Shown in pieces: positions 2,865 through 10,112 of a DNA stretch of 64,000 nucleotides (position 1 is its first letter; the number at the start of each line of letters is the position of its first letter). Both the position numbers and the translations under genes were made by a program. The stretch spans positions 1 to 64,000 of the forward strand of contig NZ_MLHL01000015.1 of NCBI RefSeq assembly GCF_002000545.1. The letters run 5' to 3'. This stretch comes from Rodentibacter trehalosifermentans. Lineage in GTDB: Bacteria > Pseudomonadota > Gammaproteobacteria > Enterobacterales > Pasteurellaceae. A model generated the notes under the pieces. The model saw only the letters and a program-made list of their open reading frames with translations. It was not told the origin of the DNA and made no database searches.

Positions 2865-4490
2865 TTAGCTTAGTAAATAAACGCTCTGATATGGCATTAA
2901 GATGACTTCTTTTTCGTCTAATGCCAGATCATTGTAGTTGTTCATCAATACCTCGCCTTTAACATTCAACGCCACGGTTTGCGGTTGGTCGCTTAAGTTT
3001 GTCAACACGGTTAAGGTTTGTCCGTGGGCTTGGCGTTGGTACGCCCAAACGGAAGCGTGATTTGGCAGTAAATCCCGGTAATCGCCTTCGGTTAGAATCG
3101 GTAATTCTTTGCGAAGTTTGATTAAGGCTTGATAGGTGTAGAATGTTGAATTTTTATCTGCCAAAGCCTGTTCTACGTTAATTTGCGGATAGTTTTTTGC
3201 CACATCAATCCAAGGTTTACCGCCGGAAAATCCTGCATTTTCGGTTGCATCCCATTGCACCGGTGTGCGGGAATTATCACGGGATTTTTGTGCCAAGATT
3301 TTAATAATCAGATCCTCATTCACGCCTTTTTCTTTCAATTCATCGTAGGCATTTAAACTTTCCACATCACGATATTCTTCAATGGTGGTGAAATTTGGAT
3401 TCGTCATTCCGATTTCTTCGCCTTGATAAATATAGGGTGTGCCTTGCATTCCGTGGAGTAACATTGCCAGCATTTTGGCGGAAGTTGTGCGAAGTTCGCC
3501 CTCATCACCGAAGCGGGAAACAATGCGTGGCTGATCGTGGTTGCACCAGAATAGTGCATTCCACGCCTTGCCGTGCATACCTTGTTGCCAATAGTTAAAA
3601 ATGGATTTTAACTCTACAAAATCGGGCTTGGCATACGTCCATTTTTCGCCGTTCGGGTAATCCACTTTGAGGTGGTGGAAATTGAAGGTCATCGACAATT
3701 CCGTGCCGTCCAAATTGGCATAGCGTTGGCAATGCTCAAGTTTGGTGGAGGACATTTCACCTACGCTCATCAAACCGTAAGGAGTGAGAGCATTTTGGTT
3801 GAGCATTTGCAGGTATTCGTGGATTTTCGGCCCGTCCGTGTAAAAACGGCGGCCATCGCCCTCAAAGTCATCTTCAAAATGTTCGGGTTTGGAAATCAAA
3901 TTCACCACGTCCAAACGCAAGCCGTCTATGCCTTTTTCCGCCCAAAAACGGCAAATCTCGAACAATTCCGACCGCACTTTTGGGTTTTCCCAGTTTAAAT
4001 CCGCCTGTTCCGGGGCGAATAAATGGAGGTAGTATTTTTGTGCTTTATCCGACCATTTCCACGCCGAACCACCAAATTTCGATTTCCAGTTAGTCGGTGT
4101 TTCACGCCAAATGTAGTAGTCGTGATATTCGCTTTGCGGGTCTTCGCCTTTGTCAAACCAGCGATGGAAAGTGGAGCTGTGATTGAACACCATATCCATC
4201 ACAATATGAATATTGCGTTTGTGGGCTTCGGCAATCAATTGCTCGAAATCTGCCATTGTGCCGTAACTTGGGTCAATTTCACGGTAATTGGCAATATCAT
4301 AGCCATTGTCGATTTGTGGTGAAACGTACATCGGCGTAATCCAAATGCCATCAATGCCGAGAGTTTGTAAGTAATCCAAACGTTTGATAATGCCTTGAAT
4401 ATCGCCCGTGCCTGAGCCTGTAGTGTCTTGGAATGATTTTGGGTAAATCTGATAAATTACCCCGTTTTTCCACCAGTTTTTATTGTTCAT
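2865..4490 (-). CDS. treC: Trehalose-6-phosphate hydrolase (alpha,alpha-phosphotrehalase)
   Basis: 541-residue glycoside hydrolase family 13 enzyme, close to the length of E. coli TreC (551). It splits trehalose-6-phosphate, formed by TreB during uptake, into glucose and glucose-6-phosphate in the cytosol. Visible family motifs are MDMVFNH (region I), GLRLDVVN with the nucleophile Asp near residue 194, the acid/base Glu in SVGEMSS near 245, and WCNHDQPR with the transition-state Asp near 319. It is the last gene of treB-bla-treC, nine bases after the beta-lactamase gene, so probably cotranscribed under TreR and CRP control. Confidence 0.95.
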   Translation of the reverse strand: MNNKNWWKNGVIYQIYPKSFQDTTGSGTGDIQGIIKRLDYLQTLGIDGIWITPMYVSPQIDNGYDIANYREIDPSYGTMADFEQLIAEAHKRNIHIVMDMVFNHSSTFHRWFDKGEDPQSEYHDYYIWRETPTNWKSKFGGSAWKWSDKAQKYYLHLFAPEQADLNWENPKVRSELFEICRFWAEKGIDGLRLDVVNLISKPEHFEDDFEGDGRRFYTDGPKIHEYLQMLNQNALTPYGLMSVGEMSSTKLEHCQRYANLDGTELSMTFNFHHLKVDYPNGEKWTYAKPDFVELKSIFNYWQQGMHGKAWNALFWCNHDQPRIVSRFGDEGELRTTSAKMLAMLLHGMQGTPYIYQGEEIGMTNPNFTTIEEYRDVESLNAYDELKEKGVNEDLIIKILAQKSRDNSRTPVQWDATENAGFSGGKPWIDVAKNYPQINVEQALADKNSTFYTYQALIKLRKELPILTEGDYRDLLPNHASVWAYQRQAHGQTLTVLTNLSDQPQTVALNVKGEVLMNNYNDLALDEKEVILMPYQSVYLLS

Positions 4491-4499
4491 TTTGAATCC

Positions 4500-5357
4500 T
4501 TAATTTTGTCTTTTTAAATGATCAAAAATTGTTTTTCCAATTTCTGCGATGGCTTGGTTGCGTTGCGCCATTGTTGCTTGGGTATTAGTGAGATAAACGG
4601 AAAGCAGATAAGCCGTACCGTCAGGTTTCCAAAAAACGCTAATAATCGATCTCGCCCCATTACTTCCTGCTCCCGTTTTATCGGCAATTTTCCAACCTTG
4701 CGGTAAGGTTGAACGCAGTAAATCATTCGCTACTTGATCGTCGAACATCCATTGGATAAATAATCGTTTTGAGCTGTTGCTGAGCAAATTGCCAAAGGTA
4801 AATTGCTGAAGCAACTGAGCCGCTTCAATCGGAGTGGTAAGATCTAAACCTTTTTTGAGATTATCTCGGTTCATATCCGGTTCTGGGCGATCAAGACGGG
4901 TTTGATTTAACCCTTGTCGTTTAAAATAGTCCGTTACCGCTTTAATACCACCAATCTGTTTCACAATCAGATTGGCGGCGGTATTATCGCTATAACTCAC
5001 CGCTGCTGAACAAAGTGCGGTCAAATTCATTTCTGTTTTGTGTTGGGTAATCGGGGAGTAATTGACAATTTCCTTAGGCAAAATAGGTAATTTTTGTGTG
5101 AAGGATAAACCGTTGTTGTCTGCCAAATCTAATGCAATGCCACAAATGAAGGCTTTATGGGTACTGTTGAGCGGAAAAGGGCGATGCCCCTGATATTCAA
5201 ACAGCACTTTTCCATCAGCGGCAAGCAATGCCACGCCAATATTGGCTTTTAATTTTTGTTCTTGCTGTGTAATGGCTTGTTGCCAATCCGCTTTTGGCAT
5301 TGCCACGAGAGGCAACGCCAAAAGTAAACCAAAGATGAAAATTCCTTTATTCCACAT
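4500..5357 (-). CDS. Class A serine beta-lactamase, CARB/PSE-like
   Basis: 285-residue precursor with an N-terminal signal sequence (GIFIFGLLLALPLVAMPKA), so periplasmic. All class A elements are present: S65-T-H-K68 (Ambler S70-K73), S123-D-N (SDN loop), E159 in DRPEPDMN (E166 of the omega loop), K227-T-G (KTG triad), and Arg 236 matching R244. Cys72 and Cys116 match the C77-C123 disulfide of TEM-type enzymes. Segments such as GARSI and the region near 250-275 look closest to CARB/PSE carbenicillinases from memory, but with Lys where those have Arg at 234. It lies inside the trehalose operon, 10 bases after treB. An uptake signal at 5012-5021 lies within the gene, suggesting long residence. 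The start at 5357 gives the signal peptide; a 16-codon longer frame reaches 5405. Confidence 0.93.
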   Translation of the reverse strand: MWNKGIFIFGLLLALPLVAMPKADWQQAITQQEQKLKANIGVALLAADGKVLFEYQGHRPFPLNSTHKAFICGIALDLADNNGLSFTQKLPILPKEIVNYSPITQHKTEMNLTALCSAAVSYSDNTAANLIVKQIGGIKAVTDYFKRQGLNQTRLDRPEPDMNRDNLKKGLDLTTPIEAAQLLQQFTFGNLLSNSSKRLFIQWMFDDQVANDLLRSTLPQGWKIADKTGAGSNGARSIISVFWKPDGTAYLLSVYLTNTQATMAQRNQAIAEIGKTIFDHLKRQN

Positions 5358-5367
5358 TTTGATGTTC

Positions 5368-6782
5368 TTATAAGGTTCCCAATTTCTCTTTACGTTTATA
5401 AACAAGGGTTGTTAATACAAATGGGATCACGATTGCCGCAAGCATTGCGAGAGCGAAAACGCCCCAGTATTGATGTTGTACCGAGAGAATACCCGGTAAG
5501 CCGCCTACACCGATACTGCCTGCCAATACACCCGATAAACCGCAAATTAAGCCGGCAACCGATGCACCGATCATCGCACATAACATCGGGAAGCGATATT
5601 TGAGGTTAATCCCATACATTGCCGGTTCGGTTACGCCTAAGTAGGCGGAGAGTGCCGCAGGAATGGCAACTTCACGGGATTTTGCGGTTTTGTTCACATA
5701 GATAATAGCGACTACCGCAGAAGCTTGTGCAATATTGGAAAGGGCTATGATTGGCCATACCGGTGTACCGCCGATACTTTGGATCATCTGCATATCAATG
5801 GCAAGGGAGGTTTGATGTACACCTGTCACCACAAGCGGTGCATAAAGGAAACCGAATAATGCCGCACCAATCGGAGCGAAATTGCCCGTCATCGCATATT
5901 TCACCACGAATGCCACGCCATTACCGATTTCACGCCCGATAGGCCCGATAATCGTATGAGCTAAGAACACTGCCAAAATAATTGAAGTGACAGGCACGAT
6001 GATTAAATTTAGGAAATCCGGCACGATTTTTGTCATAAAACGCTCAATGTAAGAGAGCGTTAAACCTGCCATAATTGCCGGGATCACTTGTGCTTGATAA
6101 CCTACTTTTTCAATACTGAACAAGCCAAAATCCCACGCTTCCGGGATTTGTGAGCCTAAGCCGTAAGAGTTCATCAATTGCGGAGAAACCAGAGTAATCC
6201 CAAGTACAATACCCAAAATCGGTGACGTCCCCATTTTACGTGCAATCGACCAACAAATTCCCACCGGTAAGAAATGGAAAATCGCTTCGCCAATCAACCA
6301 CAAGAAACTATGCATACTGTTCCAGAACGGGCTGATTTGGGTCAGCGTTTTGCCATCAAACATCGCAATATCGCCAATCACATTACGGAAACCTAAAATC
6401 AAACCACCGCTGATTAACGCAGGTAACAGAGGAATAAAAATATCCGCCATATGTGAAATCAAACTTTCATACCATTTTTGATTTTGGCGTGCGGCAGCTT
6501 TCACCTGCTCTTTATCCACGCTTGCCAACCCCGTTTTGTTGAGCAAAATTTTGTAATAATCCCCCACTTCCTGACCGATTACTACCTGGAACTGCCCCCC
6601 GTAGAAATGGTGGCTTTGACCATTGATAATTCATCAATTGCCGCTTTATCTGCTTTACTCTCATCATTTAGCACAAAGCGTAATCGGGTGATACAGTGGG
6701 TCACAGCGGAAATATTTTCTTTTCCACCAACTAATTGGATCAGTTTATCCACATTTTGCGGATCAATTTTTTGTTTAGCCAT
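5368..6782 (-). pseudogene. treB: treB, trehalose PTS permease IIBC, frameshifted
   Basis: Encodes the trehalose-specific IIB and IIC domains that import and phosphorylate trehalose. The IIB part (from ATG at 6782, ribosome site AGAAGG) has the phosphocysteine motif THCITRLRF and runs to STGGSSR-stop at 6582. The remaining IIB end and the whole multi-helix IIC domain (GLTLSYIERF, GVTEPAMYGINLKY) continue in another frame to 5368. One extra base at the run of six C at 6595-6600 (G on the coding strand) would restore GGQFQVVIG, as in the E. coli protein. With the correction the product is about 471 residues (E. coli 473). Either a real mutation, slippage at a short tract, or a sequencing error. 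Confidence 0.88.
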
Positions 6783-6816: not shown

Positions 6817-6905
6817 GAAGCGGATTATACGCTTTCGAAAAATAAAGTAAATGGGAACGTTCCCATTAAAAGGGAATATATCAAGAAAATGTGAGGTAGA
6901 TCACG
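6817..6905 (-). promoter_or_regulatory. treB promoter with TreR operator and CRP site
   Basis: Three elements lie in order upstream of treB. The minus-strand TATAAT -10 box is at 6824-6829, with a TTTACT -35 candidate 16 bases away. A perfect 18-bp palindrome, AATGGGAACGTTCCCATT at 6850-6867, has the central CG and symmetry of a LacI-family operator and fits TreR; it overlaps the -35 edge. A CRP-type site TGTGAGGTAGATCACG is at 6890-6905, centred about 81 bases before the predicted start. Together they suggest trehalose induction by relief of TreR plus cAMP-CRP activation. Confidence 0.8.
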
Positions 6906-7001: not shown

Positions 7002-8084
7002 TTACTCGACATTATCCTTAAGCCATTGCCCAAACAATCCGCTCGTTAGGATGAATTTTCCATTGGGTTGCTTTGTCAATAATTCTTTATTTATTAACTT
7101 TTTGATGTTGGTTTGTACACTGCTGGTAGAAATGGCTTTTTCAAGTCCAAGTGCATCGGCAAGTTTTTGACGAATATCTTGTTTATAAAATCCCGATTCG
7201 CCACGATGAACAAACAATAGGATTTGCTGTTCAAGTGCGGTCAAATTTTGCCAATCTTTTACAAAATCCGATTGATCGTGAATTTGATGTAAACGGGATT
7301 CGGCCGCCTCTTCCAATGTCATCGTTGGATCGATAATCATATCTTGCGTAATTGCACGCAAATAAAGGGGCGTAAATTGAAGTTTTTCAAATAAGGTAAA
7401 AAATTGATGTTTATCCAGCTTATTCCCTGTTCGTTGAGTATAAATTTCAGCGAGATAGTCGGTGAATTTCTGATCCAAATTCGGAAATTTAATCGTATGC
7501 GAAAAATGAAAGAAAGGCGCTTTAATATCATCAAAAATTTTACGCAAACCATTTGTGGAAGAACCGGTAAAAATGACTTTTACTTGATTTTTGTTCGTGT
7601 CCAAGCCCGTTCTGAGAGAACGAATTAAGCCTTCAGTTTTTGGAATGCGTGCAAGTTCTTGCACTTCATCAAGCAACATTAGGGTGGGTTTTTTATCTTT
7701 GGCAATTTCATCAATCAGCACATTTATCGGTAATTCTTGGGTTATTTCTTCATTTTTCTCAATGCTCACGCCTAAAATTTCCACACTTTTAATTTGTTTT
7801 AAGGCAGATGTCGGGCTAATTTCTGTTAAGAATTTCATTAATGCTTGCCGAAATTCCCCTTGAATTGTCGCTCTGTTTTCATTCATAAAACTGAAGTAGA
7901 ACACATTAAACCCCAGTTGTTCTGCCGATTTCGTGATGTCATTGAGTAAGAATTGGGTTTTTCCCATTCGGCGGGGGGCAAATAACGTGAAGGCAGAACT
8001 AATTCCCTCAGCTAGGTTACGCACAAGTAAATCAGCGAGTTCTACTCGAGGATAATAGAGAGGATCGGATTTAGTTATGGTCAT
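7002..8084 (-). CDS. AAA-type ATPase (archaeal-ATPase/STAND-like) with C-terminal winged helix
   Basis: 360 residues. A Walker A of the RRMGKT type (FTLFAPRRMGKTQF, about residues 33-46) and Walker B LMLLDEVQ (about 154-161) are followed by a sensor strand VIFTGSS and, after residue 280, a winged-helix-like tail (ALEQQILLFVHRGESGFYKQDIRQKL). This arrangement is that of ATPase_2-family proteins, whose roles are mostly unknown; some are regulators or defence NTPases. It sits between treB and treR but has its own spaced upstream region containing an unusual palindromic array at 8097-8154. An uptake signal lies inside the gene near 7224. It is not expected to act in trehalose use. Confidence 0.75.
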   Translation of the reverse strand: MTITKSDPLYYPRVELADLLVRNLAEGISSAFTLFAPRRMGKTQFLLNDITKSAEQLGFNVFYFSFMNENRATIQGEFRQALMKFLTEISPTSALKQIKSVEILGVSIEKNEEITQELPINVLIDEIAKDKKPTLMLLDEVQELARIPKTEGLIRSLRTGLDTNKNQVKVIFTGSSTNGLRKIFDDIKAPFFHFSHTIKFPNLDQKFTDYLAEIYTQRTGNKLDKHQFFTLFEKLQFTPLYLRAITQDMIIDPTMTLEEAAESRLHQIHDQSDFVKDWQNLTALEQQILLFVHRGESGFYKQDIRQKLADALGLEKAISTSSVQTNIKKLINKELLTKQPNGKFILTSGLFGQWLKDNVE

Positions 8085-8171: not shown

Positions 8172-9116
8172 TTACGATAGCAGAAATGATACTAACTGTT
8201 GTTGTATGGTTTTATTGCCGTGAATTTGTTCAAGAAGTAACGCTACAGCCCGGTTTCCGGTTTGTTCATAGCCGAAATCGAGGCTGATTAAATTTGGTAC
8301 GAAATGTTCCAACAGGGAATTTTGTCCGATGTAGGCAAGGGGAAGCATTTGTTGGCTTTCCTGAAAATGTTTCACCGTACCGATTGCAAGACTGGTGGTG
8401 GCGCATAACACGGCATCTAACGGTTGTGCCAGTTTGGCGTAATGCTGATAGCCGGCTTCGATATCAAGTTCGGTGAGAGCAAAATTGGGGACGAGGTGGT
8501 GTTGGAGACAGAAATTTAAATAACTTTGTGTACGTAATCGTCCTGTGGTTTCGTCTTGATTATGGATGCCGAGATAACCGATGTGGCGATATCCTTGGGT
8601 GTACAGTTTTTCCATTAGGGCGTTGATTGCGCCTTGATCATCATAATAAACGCAAGAAATATCCTTAAAATAACGGGCGATCACGACCATATTTCCCTGC
8701 CATTGTTGCAATATTTCTTCTGAAAGCGGAGAAAATCCAAAGACAATAACACTATCCACTTGGCGTTGTTTGAATAAATTGAGATGCCGGGCGACCTGTT
8801 TTTCGTCAAACTGACTTTCAACGATAATCGGGGTGATTTTTTGTCGATAAAGTTCGGTCAAAATTGCCCGTAATGTTTGAGATTCGCCGCTTGAGTTGAA
8901 TTTTGAGACGATAATCCCCACCACGGGGTTTTGTGCACCGCGCATTGCACGGGCGGAACGATTCGGCTTGAACCCAACGGAATCAATGACCGCTTGGACT
9001 TTTTTTCGAGTCTCTTCGCTGACTTTGGGATCGTGGTTTAATACGCGGGACACCGTGGATTTTCCCACTTGACATAGTTTTGCAATATCCTTAATCGTAT
9101 AATTTTTTTCCATCAT
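8172..9116 (-). CDS. treR: Trehalose operon repressor TreR, LacI family
   Basis: 314 residues. The N-terminal helix-turn-helix TIKDIAKLCQVGKSTVSRVL and hinge PNRSARAMRG are those of LacI-family repressors, and the remainder follows E. coli TreR (315 residues) closely: PIIVESQFD, VIVFGFSPLSEEIL, CVYYDDQGAI, HIGYLG, ALDFGYEQTG-like end. TreR binds trehalose-6-phosphate as inducer. The predicted target is the palindrome at 6850-6867. It starts four bases after the rsmC stop on the same strand, with no clear ribosome site; ATG at 9113 is an alternative start. Confidence 0.94.
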   Translation of the reverse strand: MMEKNYTIKDIAKLCQVGKSTVSRVLNHDPKVSEETRKKVQAVIDSVGFKPNRSARAMRGAQNPVVGIIVSKFNSSGESQTLRAILTELYRQKITPIIVESQFDEKQVARHLNLFKQRQVDSVIVFGFSPLSEEILQQWQGNMVVIARYFKDISCVYYDDQGAINALMEKLYTQGYRHIGYLGIHNQDETTGRLRTQSYLNFCLQHHLVPNFALTELDIEAGYQHYAKLAQPLDAVLCATTSLAIGTVKHFQESQQMLPLAYIGQNSLLEHFVPNLISLDFGYEQTGNRAVALLLEQIHGNKTIQQQLVSFLLS

Positions 9117-9119
9117 GGA

Positions 9120-10112
9120 TTAATTTTTTACCGAATAAACCTTAAATTTTGAAGTTTGAGCCAATACCTCAAATTCGCCAAAATGCTGTTGCAATAAATC
9201 AGGGTAAGGCAGGAACGCATTGGCGACAATGCGCAATTCGCCCCCTTGATTTAGATGCCATTTGGCTTGGGTAATCAGTGTTTTTACCGCTTGATAAGCG
9301 GTATCAATTCCATCGTGGAAAGGAGGATTGGAAATGATGAGGTCAAATTTTCCTTTCACATCAGAAAACACATCGCTTGCGAAAACCTCGCCTTCCAATT
9401 GATTTTCCGAAAGGGTTTTACGGGCAGATTCCAACGCCATTGCGTGAATATCGGTCATCACAATAGCCGATTTAGGATTTGTTTTTTTGATTATTGAGCC
9501 GATTACGCCGGCACCACAACCGAGATCAAGCACTTTGCCTTTTATTGGGTGATTGAGTGTTGAAAGCAAAAGTGCCGTACCGGCATCCAATTCATTGGCA
9601 CTAAACACGCCCGGCAAACTATGGATGGTTAGACCTTGCAGTTGAGGATGATGATAGGTTTTCCAATAGGTATGGAAGGAAAAGTGCGGTCGTTTTTTTA
9701 GAGAAAAGTGATATAGCCCGCAACGGCGTGCAGAATCTATTTTCGCAATATCGCCGAAAGGGGCGAGCATTTTTTCCACCGAACGAACACCGCAACGGTT
9801 TTCACCGATAACAAGCATTTCCTGCCCTTCTTGTGCATTCGCAAGAAGTTGCATTAGTTGAAATTGTACCTCTTGTTTGTTTTTTAGCCAATAATAAAGG
9901 ATAAGATCCGCATTGCCTTGAAATTCAACGGAAAAATTGACCGCACTTTGGCTCCGGGCATAATCAAAATAGCTACTCCAAATTTGAATGGATTGACAAT
10001 GTTGCATCAATTTCTGTGGAAATTGATCCTTTATGCCGCCGGCAAGAAGAATTGATTTTCCGTGGAAAAGGGGGAAGTGGCGCTCTAAAACTTCGCTTTC
10101 AAGAGAAATCAC
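9120..10112 (-). CDS. rsmC: 16S rRNA m2G1207 methyltransferase RsmC
   Basis: 330 residues (E. coli 343). An N-terminal degenerate methyltransferase-like domain (GENRCGVRSVEKML) is followed by the catalytic domain with the S-adenosylmethionine loop VLDLGCGAGVIGS near residues 194-206 and the NPPF catalytic motif in IISNPPFHDGI near 260. It methylates guanosine 1207 of 16S rRNA in the small subunit. The start is a GTG at 10112 preceded by AGGATTC. It is divergent from the lipoprotein-holD-rimI operon and followed closely by treR. Confidence 0.95.
   Translation of the reverse strand: MISLESEVLERHFPLFHGKSILLAGGIKDQFPQKLMQHCQSIQIWSSYFDYARSQSAVNFSVEFQGNADLILYYWLKNKQEVQFQLMQLLANAQEGQEMLVIGENRCGVRSVEKMLAPFGDIAKIDSARRCGLYHFSLKKRPHFSFHTYWKTYHHPQLQGLTIHSLPGVFSANELDAGTALLLSTLNHPIKGKVLDLGCGAGVIGSIIKKTNPKSAIVMTDIHAMALESARKTLSENQLEGEVFASDVFSDVKGKFDLIISNPPFHDGIDTAYQAVKTLITQAKWHLNQGGELRIVANAFLPYPDLLQQHFGEFEVLAQTSKFKVYSVKN

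Follow-up and report, generated by a model that had tools for sequence, protein, structure and literature searches.

The window, by which we mean the whole stretch of 64,000 nucleotides analysed here, contains a class A beta-lactamase gene (bla) recognised by its frame, by profile and by alignment. The gene is a single intact open frame with an ATG start (4500-5357, minus strand) and encodes 285 aa. It lies between treB and treC, exactly where the original prediction had placed it, on the same strand as both and separated from them by gaps of 10 nt (treB-bla) and 9 nt (bla-treC). Downstream, treC (2865-4490, minus) encodes an intact alpha,alpha-phosphotrehalase of 541 aa that scores above its own profile cut-off, followed by a PEBP-family gene (2288-2839, minus) that anchors the locus on its right side in most members of the genus. 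Upstream, treB is present in two pieces: an EIIC part (5368-6567, minus; above the PRK11007 cut-off), whose frame is severed from EIIB, and an EIIB part (6582-6782, minus), identified by comparison with congeners as a 66-aa frame that ends at a TAG after a frameshift. Beyond them lie an AAA ATPase gene (AAA_14/ATPase_2; 7002-8084, minus), found between treR and treB in the window's genome only, the trehalose repressor gene treR (8172-9116, minus), assigned from its top profile match at 331 bits, below the cut-off of 357, and rsmC (9120-10112, minus), which locus comparison identifies, like the PEBP gene, as an anchor, here the left one in the genus. Among the genes immediately around bla, none was recognised as a transposase, in line with the earlier statement that the gene is free of mobile elements.

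The bla protein passes the Pfam-type profile PF13354 (142 bits, cut-off 22) and the class A beta-lactamase model NF033103 (262 bits, cut-off 200), and reaches the cut-off of none of the allele-family models listed. Its top named-family NCBIfam score, against the CARB/PSE/RTG model NF000481, is 238.6 bits for a cut-off of 430, and the TEM model NF000531 gives 182.5 bits for a cut-off of 625. In a search of solved structures, PSE-4 is the top match (E 2e-58), a strong homology. Ambler numbering, assigned through alignment to TEM-1-like and PSE proteins, places every expected residue: S70-T-H-K73, C77, Y105, C123, S130-D-N132, R164, E166-P-D-M-N170, D179, K234-T-G236, and R244. The S70-T-H-K73 motif (residues 65-68; 5154-5165, minus) conforms to the S70-x-x-K73 pattern, S130-D-N132 (residues 123-125; 4983-4991, minus) to that of class A, E166-P-D-M-N170 of the omega loop (residues 159-163; 4869-4883, minus) to the E166-x-x-x-N170 deacylation pattern, and K234-T-G236 (residues 227-229; 4671-4679, minus) to K/R234-T/S-G236. 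The catalytic motifs are thus intact, as had been claimed, and the signal peptide foreseen at the same time is recognisable by eye as a Sec-type leader with its cleavage site, MWNKGIFIFGLLLALPLVAMPKA, at about residues 1-19 to 1-23 (5289-5357, minus). A structure model of the protein, built from four orthologue sequences only, had a mean pLDDT of 58.7 and was left out of the fold comparison. The product is probably an active, secreted class A serine beta-lactamase of the penicillinase type. It is the only class A match above the NF033103 cut-off in the window's genome, and such matches occur in 4 of the 15 Rodentibacter genomes. Our search of titles and abstracts on resistance in Rodentibacter and Pasteurella pneumotropica, on a trehalose-operon beta-lactamase, and on STHK returned no description of the gene.

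The best promoter-like site upstream of the operon is a sigma-70-like sequence, TTTACT-16-TATAAT, ahead of treB (6824-6851, minus). Its -35 element adjoins a TreR operator-like sequence, AATGGGAACGTTCCCATT (6850-6867, minus), with the TreR operator-type palindrome GGGAACGTTCCC, and it stands 25 bases from a CRP-like site that reads GTGATCTACCTCACA on the gene strand (6890-6904, minus). All three sites are conserved in eight species; since shuffles yield promoter-like matches at least as often as the region does, this conservation is the stronger argument for the promoter. Closely spaced, on the same strand, and behind a treB promoter with TreR and CRP sites, bla has the attributes of an operon member, and the gaps of 10 and 9 nt make co-transcription of treB-bla-treC likely.

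The treB gene of the window is damaged. A run of six G on the gene strand (C6/G6; 6595-6600, minus), broken up by a different base in seven congeners, lacks one base relative to them, and this deletion separates the IIB and IIC parts; the original prediction had named treB as a neighbour, which is correct, but had not seen that the gene is broken. A bypass of the frameshift is conceivable, since the run holds G GGG GGC, at which -1 slippage could occur. In Rodentibacter sp. Ppn85 (NZ_MLHS01000011.1; G127), a Trp codon of treB close to the C-terminus is replaced by an in-frame TAG (L049 10716-11912), and in Rodentibacter genomosp. 1 Ppn416 (NZ_MLHN01000001.1; G126) treB is intact. The inducer of E. 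coli TreR is trehalose 6-phosphate, which is made by TreB. Because treB is broken in both the window and Ppn85, induction should fail in these two strains, and the inducer is probably not made there from imported trehalose, barring an assembly error or a frameshift bypass. Trehalose induction is therefore probably broken in two of the three species that have the operon arrangement. The translation signals differ as well: AGGAG precedes bla in Ppn416 and Ppn85, and the window has TTATAAGAACATCAAAATG instead. With AGGAG lost and treB frameshifted, bla of the window may be poorly expressed.

Orthologues of bla, at 75-80% identity, were confined to three further Rodentibacter species among the 140 Pasteurellaceae genomes searched, with one genome, in draft assembly, per species. 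In all four bla-bearing species the gene sits between rsmC and the PEBP gene. The order rsmC-treR-treB-bla-treC-PEBP is common to Ppn416, Ppn85 and the window, which has the AAA ATPase gene in addition. The fourth species (G120) has the order rsmC-bla-PEBP: treR, treB, and treC are lost and bla is intact, about 90 nt downstream of rsmC. The stretch between rsmC and bla holds no promoter-like site on the bla strand. We considered whether bla might have arrived in G120 before the tre genes and rejected this, since tre genes would then have had to insert twice, precisely on either side of bla, and rsmC directly adjoins the PEBP gene in the outgroups; loss of tre in G120 is simpler. A further species, G125, has lost both tre and bla and retains a decayed 3' stub of bla between rsmC and the PEBP gene (L106 7649-7814). 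Over 63 bp this stub is 84% identical to bla of Ppn416; it reads NTQATMAQRQAIAEIIGVIF where the C-terminus of bla has NTQATMAQRNQAIAEIGKTIF, and scores 58 bits against bla of G120, the best of 200 shuffles reaching 27 bits.

The clade includes at least five lineages without bla, so the gene is dispensable. No remnants of it were found in the 140-150 bp treB-treC junctions of two bla-free species (G118, G121), nor was a copy found elsewhere in the genome of G124. The G124 assembly breaks between treB and treC at the repeat GTGTGTCCCTACAAGATAAC, where both contigs end (L042 1-180, L103 1-190), and a similar sequence is present in the Ppn416 locus (L048). On the rpoB+gyrB tree, the bla-bearing species form two groups inside a ten-species clade, a pattern that requires four changes. 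The relic in G125 leads us to favour one old gain followed by several losses. The neighbouring gene trees conflict with one another, which indicates that recombination also occurs.

The bla gene of the window contains a DNA uptake signal core, AAGTGCGGT (5013-5021, plus), as the original prediction had reported. Its use as evidence of residence did not hold: the window contains 39 such cores, about one per 1.6 kb, and bla of the three orthologues has none, so the signal is not diagnostic and we rejected it as an argument. An inverted, uptake-signal-like pair capable of forming a hairpin, GACCGCACTTT ... GCGGTCAA, was seen at the treB-treC junctions of bla-free species (L043 7916-8064, L044 7003-7144).

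The divergence of the orthologues bears on the age of the gene. Between bla-bearing species, dS of bla is 0.92-1.62, and that of the flanking genes is 0.65-1.16 (treC), 0.53-1.05 (treB), 0.96-1.06 (treR), 0.70-1.10 (rsmC), and 0.73-1.17 (PEBP); values near or above 1 are close to saturation and thus indicate that the gene is old, giving no exact date. The dN/dS of the four intact frames, 0.10-0.16 (0.11-0.16 in pairs that include the window copy), shows that bla has evolved under purifying selection. Taken with a dS within the range of its flanks and the decayed stub in a fifth species, this ratio marks bla as an old gene. In the Ppn416-Ppn85 pair, dS of bla (0.92) exceeds that of treB (0.53) and treC (0.65), and some exchange of bla between species by recombination may therefore have taken place.

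The nearest relatives, for which a database search had been suggested, are the Rodentibacter orthologues themselves. Near-identity to a mobile enzyme, the result that the original prediction had singled out as fatal to its own reading, was not seen: among the best 5000 plasmid records, all are below 60% identity to the bla protein, with the top at about 43%. A tree built from 36 class A proteins unites the four Rodentibacter enzymes in one clade (100/100) on a long stem and groups them at 98/92 with the enzymes of Rms149 (P. aeruginosa), pEMB1, pPC9 (P. putida), Sodalis praecaptivus pHS1, and G634. Elsewhere in the Pasteurellaceae (140 genomes), the matches are TEM-1-like (40%) and ROB-1-like (31%) genes or fragments, which we take to be TEM-1 and ROB-1 from recognition of their sequences.

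Based on the above data, we consider it likely, with good confidence, that bla encodes a secreted and probably active class A penicillinase and has resided in the chromosome of one Rodentibacter clade from a time before the species of that clade diverged. Inferring from the family, the product would be exported by Sec to the periplasm, where Ser70 would be acylated by penicillins and Glu166 and Asn170 would activate the deacylating water. The gene would be read as the middle one of a treB-bla-treC message. Most likely bla benefits the cell by protecting it from beta-lactams whether or not trehalose is used, and its position in the operon would be an old landing site as opposed to a working regulatory link; both suggestions follow from the survival of bla where tre genes are broken or gone. 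The advantage that preserves bla must, at least in part, be independent of trehalose use, as G120 lost the operon and kept the enzyme. The claim that the gene is resident, unlike ROB-1 or TEM-1 in this family, is borne out by orthologues that share one address across four species, by their flank-like dS, and by the G125 relic. Alternatively, a mobile gene for resistance, be it ROB, TEM, CARB, or some other enzyme of plasmids, might recently have been captured and have landed in treBC by chance. This reading could appeal to the frequency of plasmid class A genes in the family and to the ROB-1-like and TEM-1-like copies in other Pasteurellaceae genomes. We rejected it as extremely improbable: the plasmid relatives of bla are at best about 43% identical among the best 5000 records, the orthologues occupy one site with dS like their flanks, a relic persists in G125, the GC content of bla (0.418) is close to that of the window (0.405), and no transposase was recognised nearby.

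The link to trehalose is only partly borne out. The original prediction tied expression to trehalose and cAMP, and a beta-lactamase so controlled might be kept for a useful co-induction, for instance if it gave early notice of fungi that are rich in trehalose and make penicillin. The short gaps, the conserved treB promoter with its TreR operator-like and CRP-like sites, the treB-bla-treC order in three species, and the intact treB of Ppn416 agree with this. However, treB is frameshifted in the window and interrupted by TAG in Ppn85, bla is intact in G120 with treR, treB, and treC gone, and several tre-bearing species have no bla between treB and treC, so that we regard control of this kind as unlikely; the link itself is possible in Ppn416 and doubtful in the window's genome. 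Trehalose is a fungal and insect sugar, and one can imagine that bla joined the operon so that trehalose would pre-arm the cell against natural penicillins, and was freed where trehalose use was lost, but this scenario seems very unlikely to us. Several independent gains, or a passage of bla from one Rodentibacter species to another through transformation with homologous recombination at treB-treC, are possible though not probable in place of one old gain with losses. The patchy distribution with its four changes, the sister pairs that differ (G127/G118 and G120/G124), the discordant neighbour gene trees, and the differing types of treB-treC junction all speak for them; the four copies nevertheless form a single clade with a long shared stem (100/100), the relic in bla-free G125 is a real loss, and no pair has a bla dS below 0.9, which argues against any recent exchange among the sampled species. 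Finally, bla of the window strain might be a dying gene that is hardly expressed, as TTATAAGAACATCAAAATG in place of AGGAG, the treB frameshift, and the decayed relic in G125 would suggest. We find this rather unlikely, given a frame and catalytic residues that are all intact at a dS of about 1 from relatives and the low dN/dS of pairs that include this copy.

A resident gene of this kind is of interest because most beta-lactamases known from Pasteurellaceae are encoded by acquired, mobile genes (ROB, TEM, CARB/PSE). Rodentibacter bla would be an intrinsic beta-lactamase that predates a set of species whose hosts are laboratory and wild rodents. It could account for a beta-lactam resistance limited to some species of Rodentibacter, and is a possible origin of a future mobile gene. 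Having outlived its operon, whole in G120 and in the form of a stub in G125, it would also offer a natural experiment on why animal commensals retain a beta-lactamase.

Comparison with known systems places the enzyme within its class. The best matches outside Rodentibacter, the plasmid-borne enzymes of Rms149, pEMB1, pPC9, and pHS1, are about 39-43% identical over the full alignment, the highest global identities (about 41-43%) being those of Rms149, pHS1, and pPC9; they have K234 as in the Rodentibacter enzymes and, together with the G634 enzyme, the same unusual N69-S-T-H-K73 motif, but differ in the omega loop and the 110-118 loop. Two of these NSTHK genes were located, on pHS1 (L140 2980-3834) and on pPC9 (L144 1501-2331); the latter lies beside a Tn3-family transposase, and the PLSDB table lists no gene for it. 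The PSE/CARB/RTG carbenicillinases (PSE-4; pJR2 of P. multocida) have the same general motifs at 37-39% identity, with R234 (RSG/RTG) in place of K234 and TSTFK in place of NSTHK. Owing to K234 and a score far under the family cut-off, the bla protein is not a PSE/CARB enzyme. TEM-1 (35-39% identity) has the same catalytic residues and C77-C123 pair, but is mobile and occurs in unrelated genomes of the family and the order. ROB-1, the class A enzyme well known in Pasteurellaceae, is only 28-31% identical, which places bla outside the ROB family; it is mobile and lacks the C77 that the bla protein has. Because relatives at 75-80% are confined to Rodentibacter and ROB-1, TEM-1, and PSE/CARB are all distant, bla is best read as a resident gene as opposed to a captured mobile enzyme. 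Intrinsic chromosomal class A enzymes of other gammaproteobacteria, such as SHV/LEN/OKP of Klebsiella, are likewise species-bound, resident, and under purifying selection; they belong to another sequence group and have another genomic address, whereas Rodentibacter bla lies inside treBC. Judged by its sequence, Rodentibacter bla is a new and distinct lineage of a well-known enzyme class at an unusual address.
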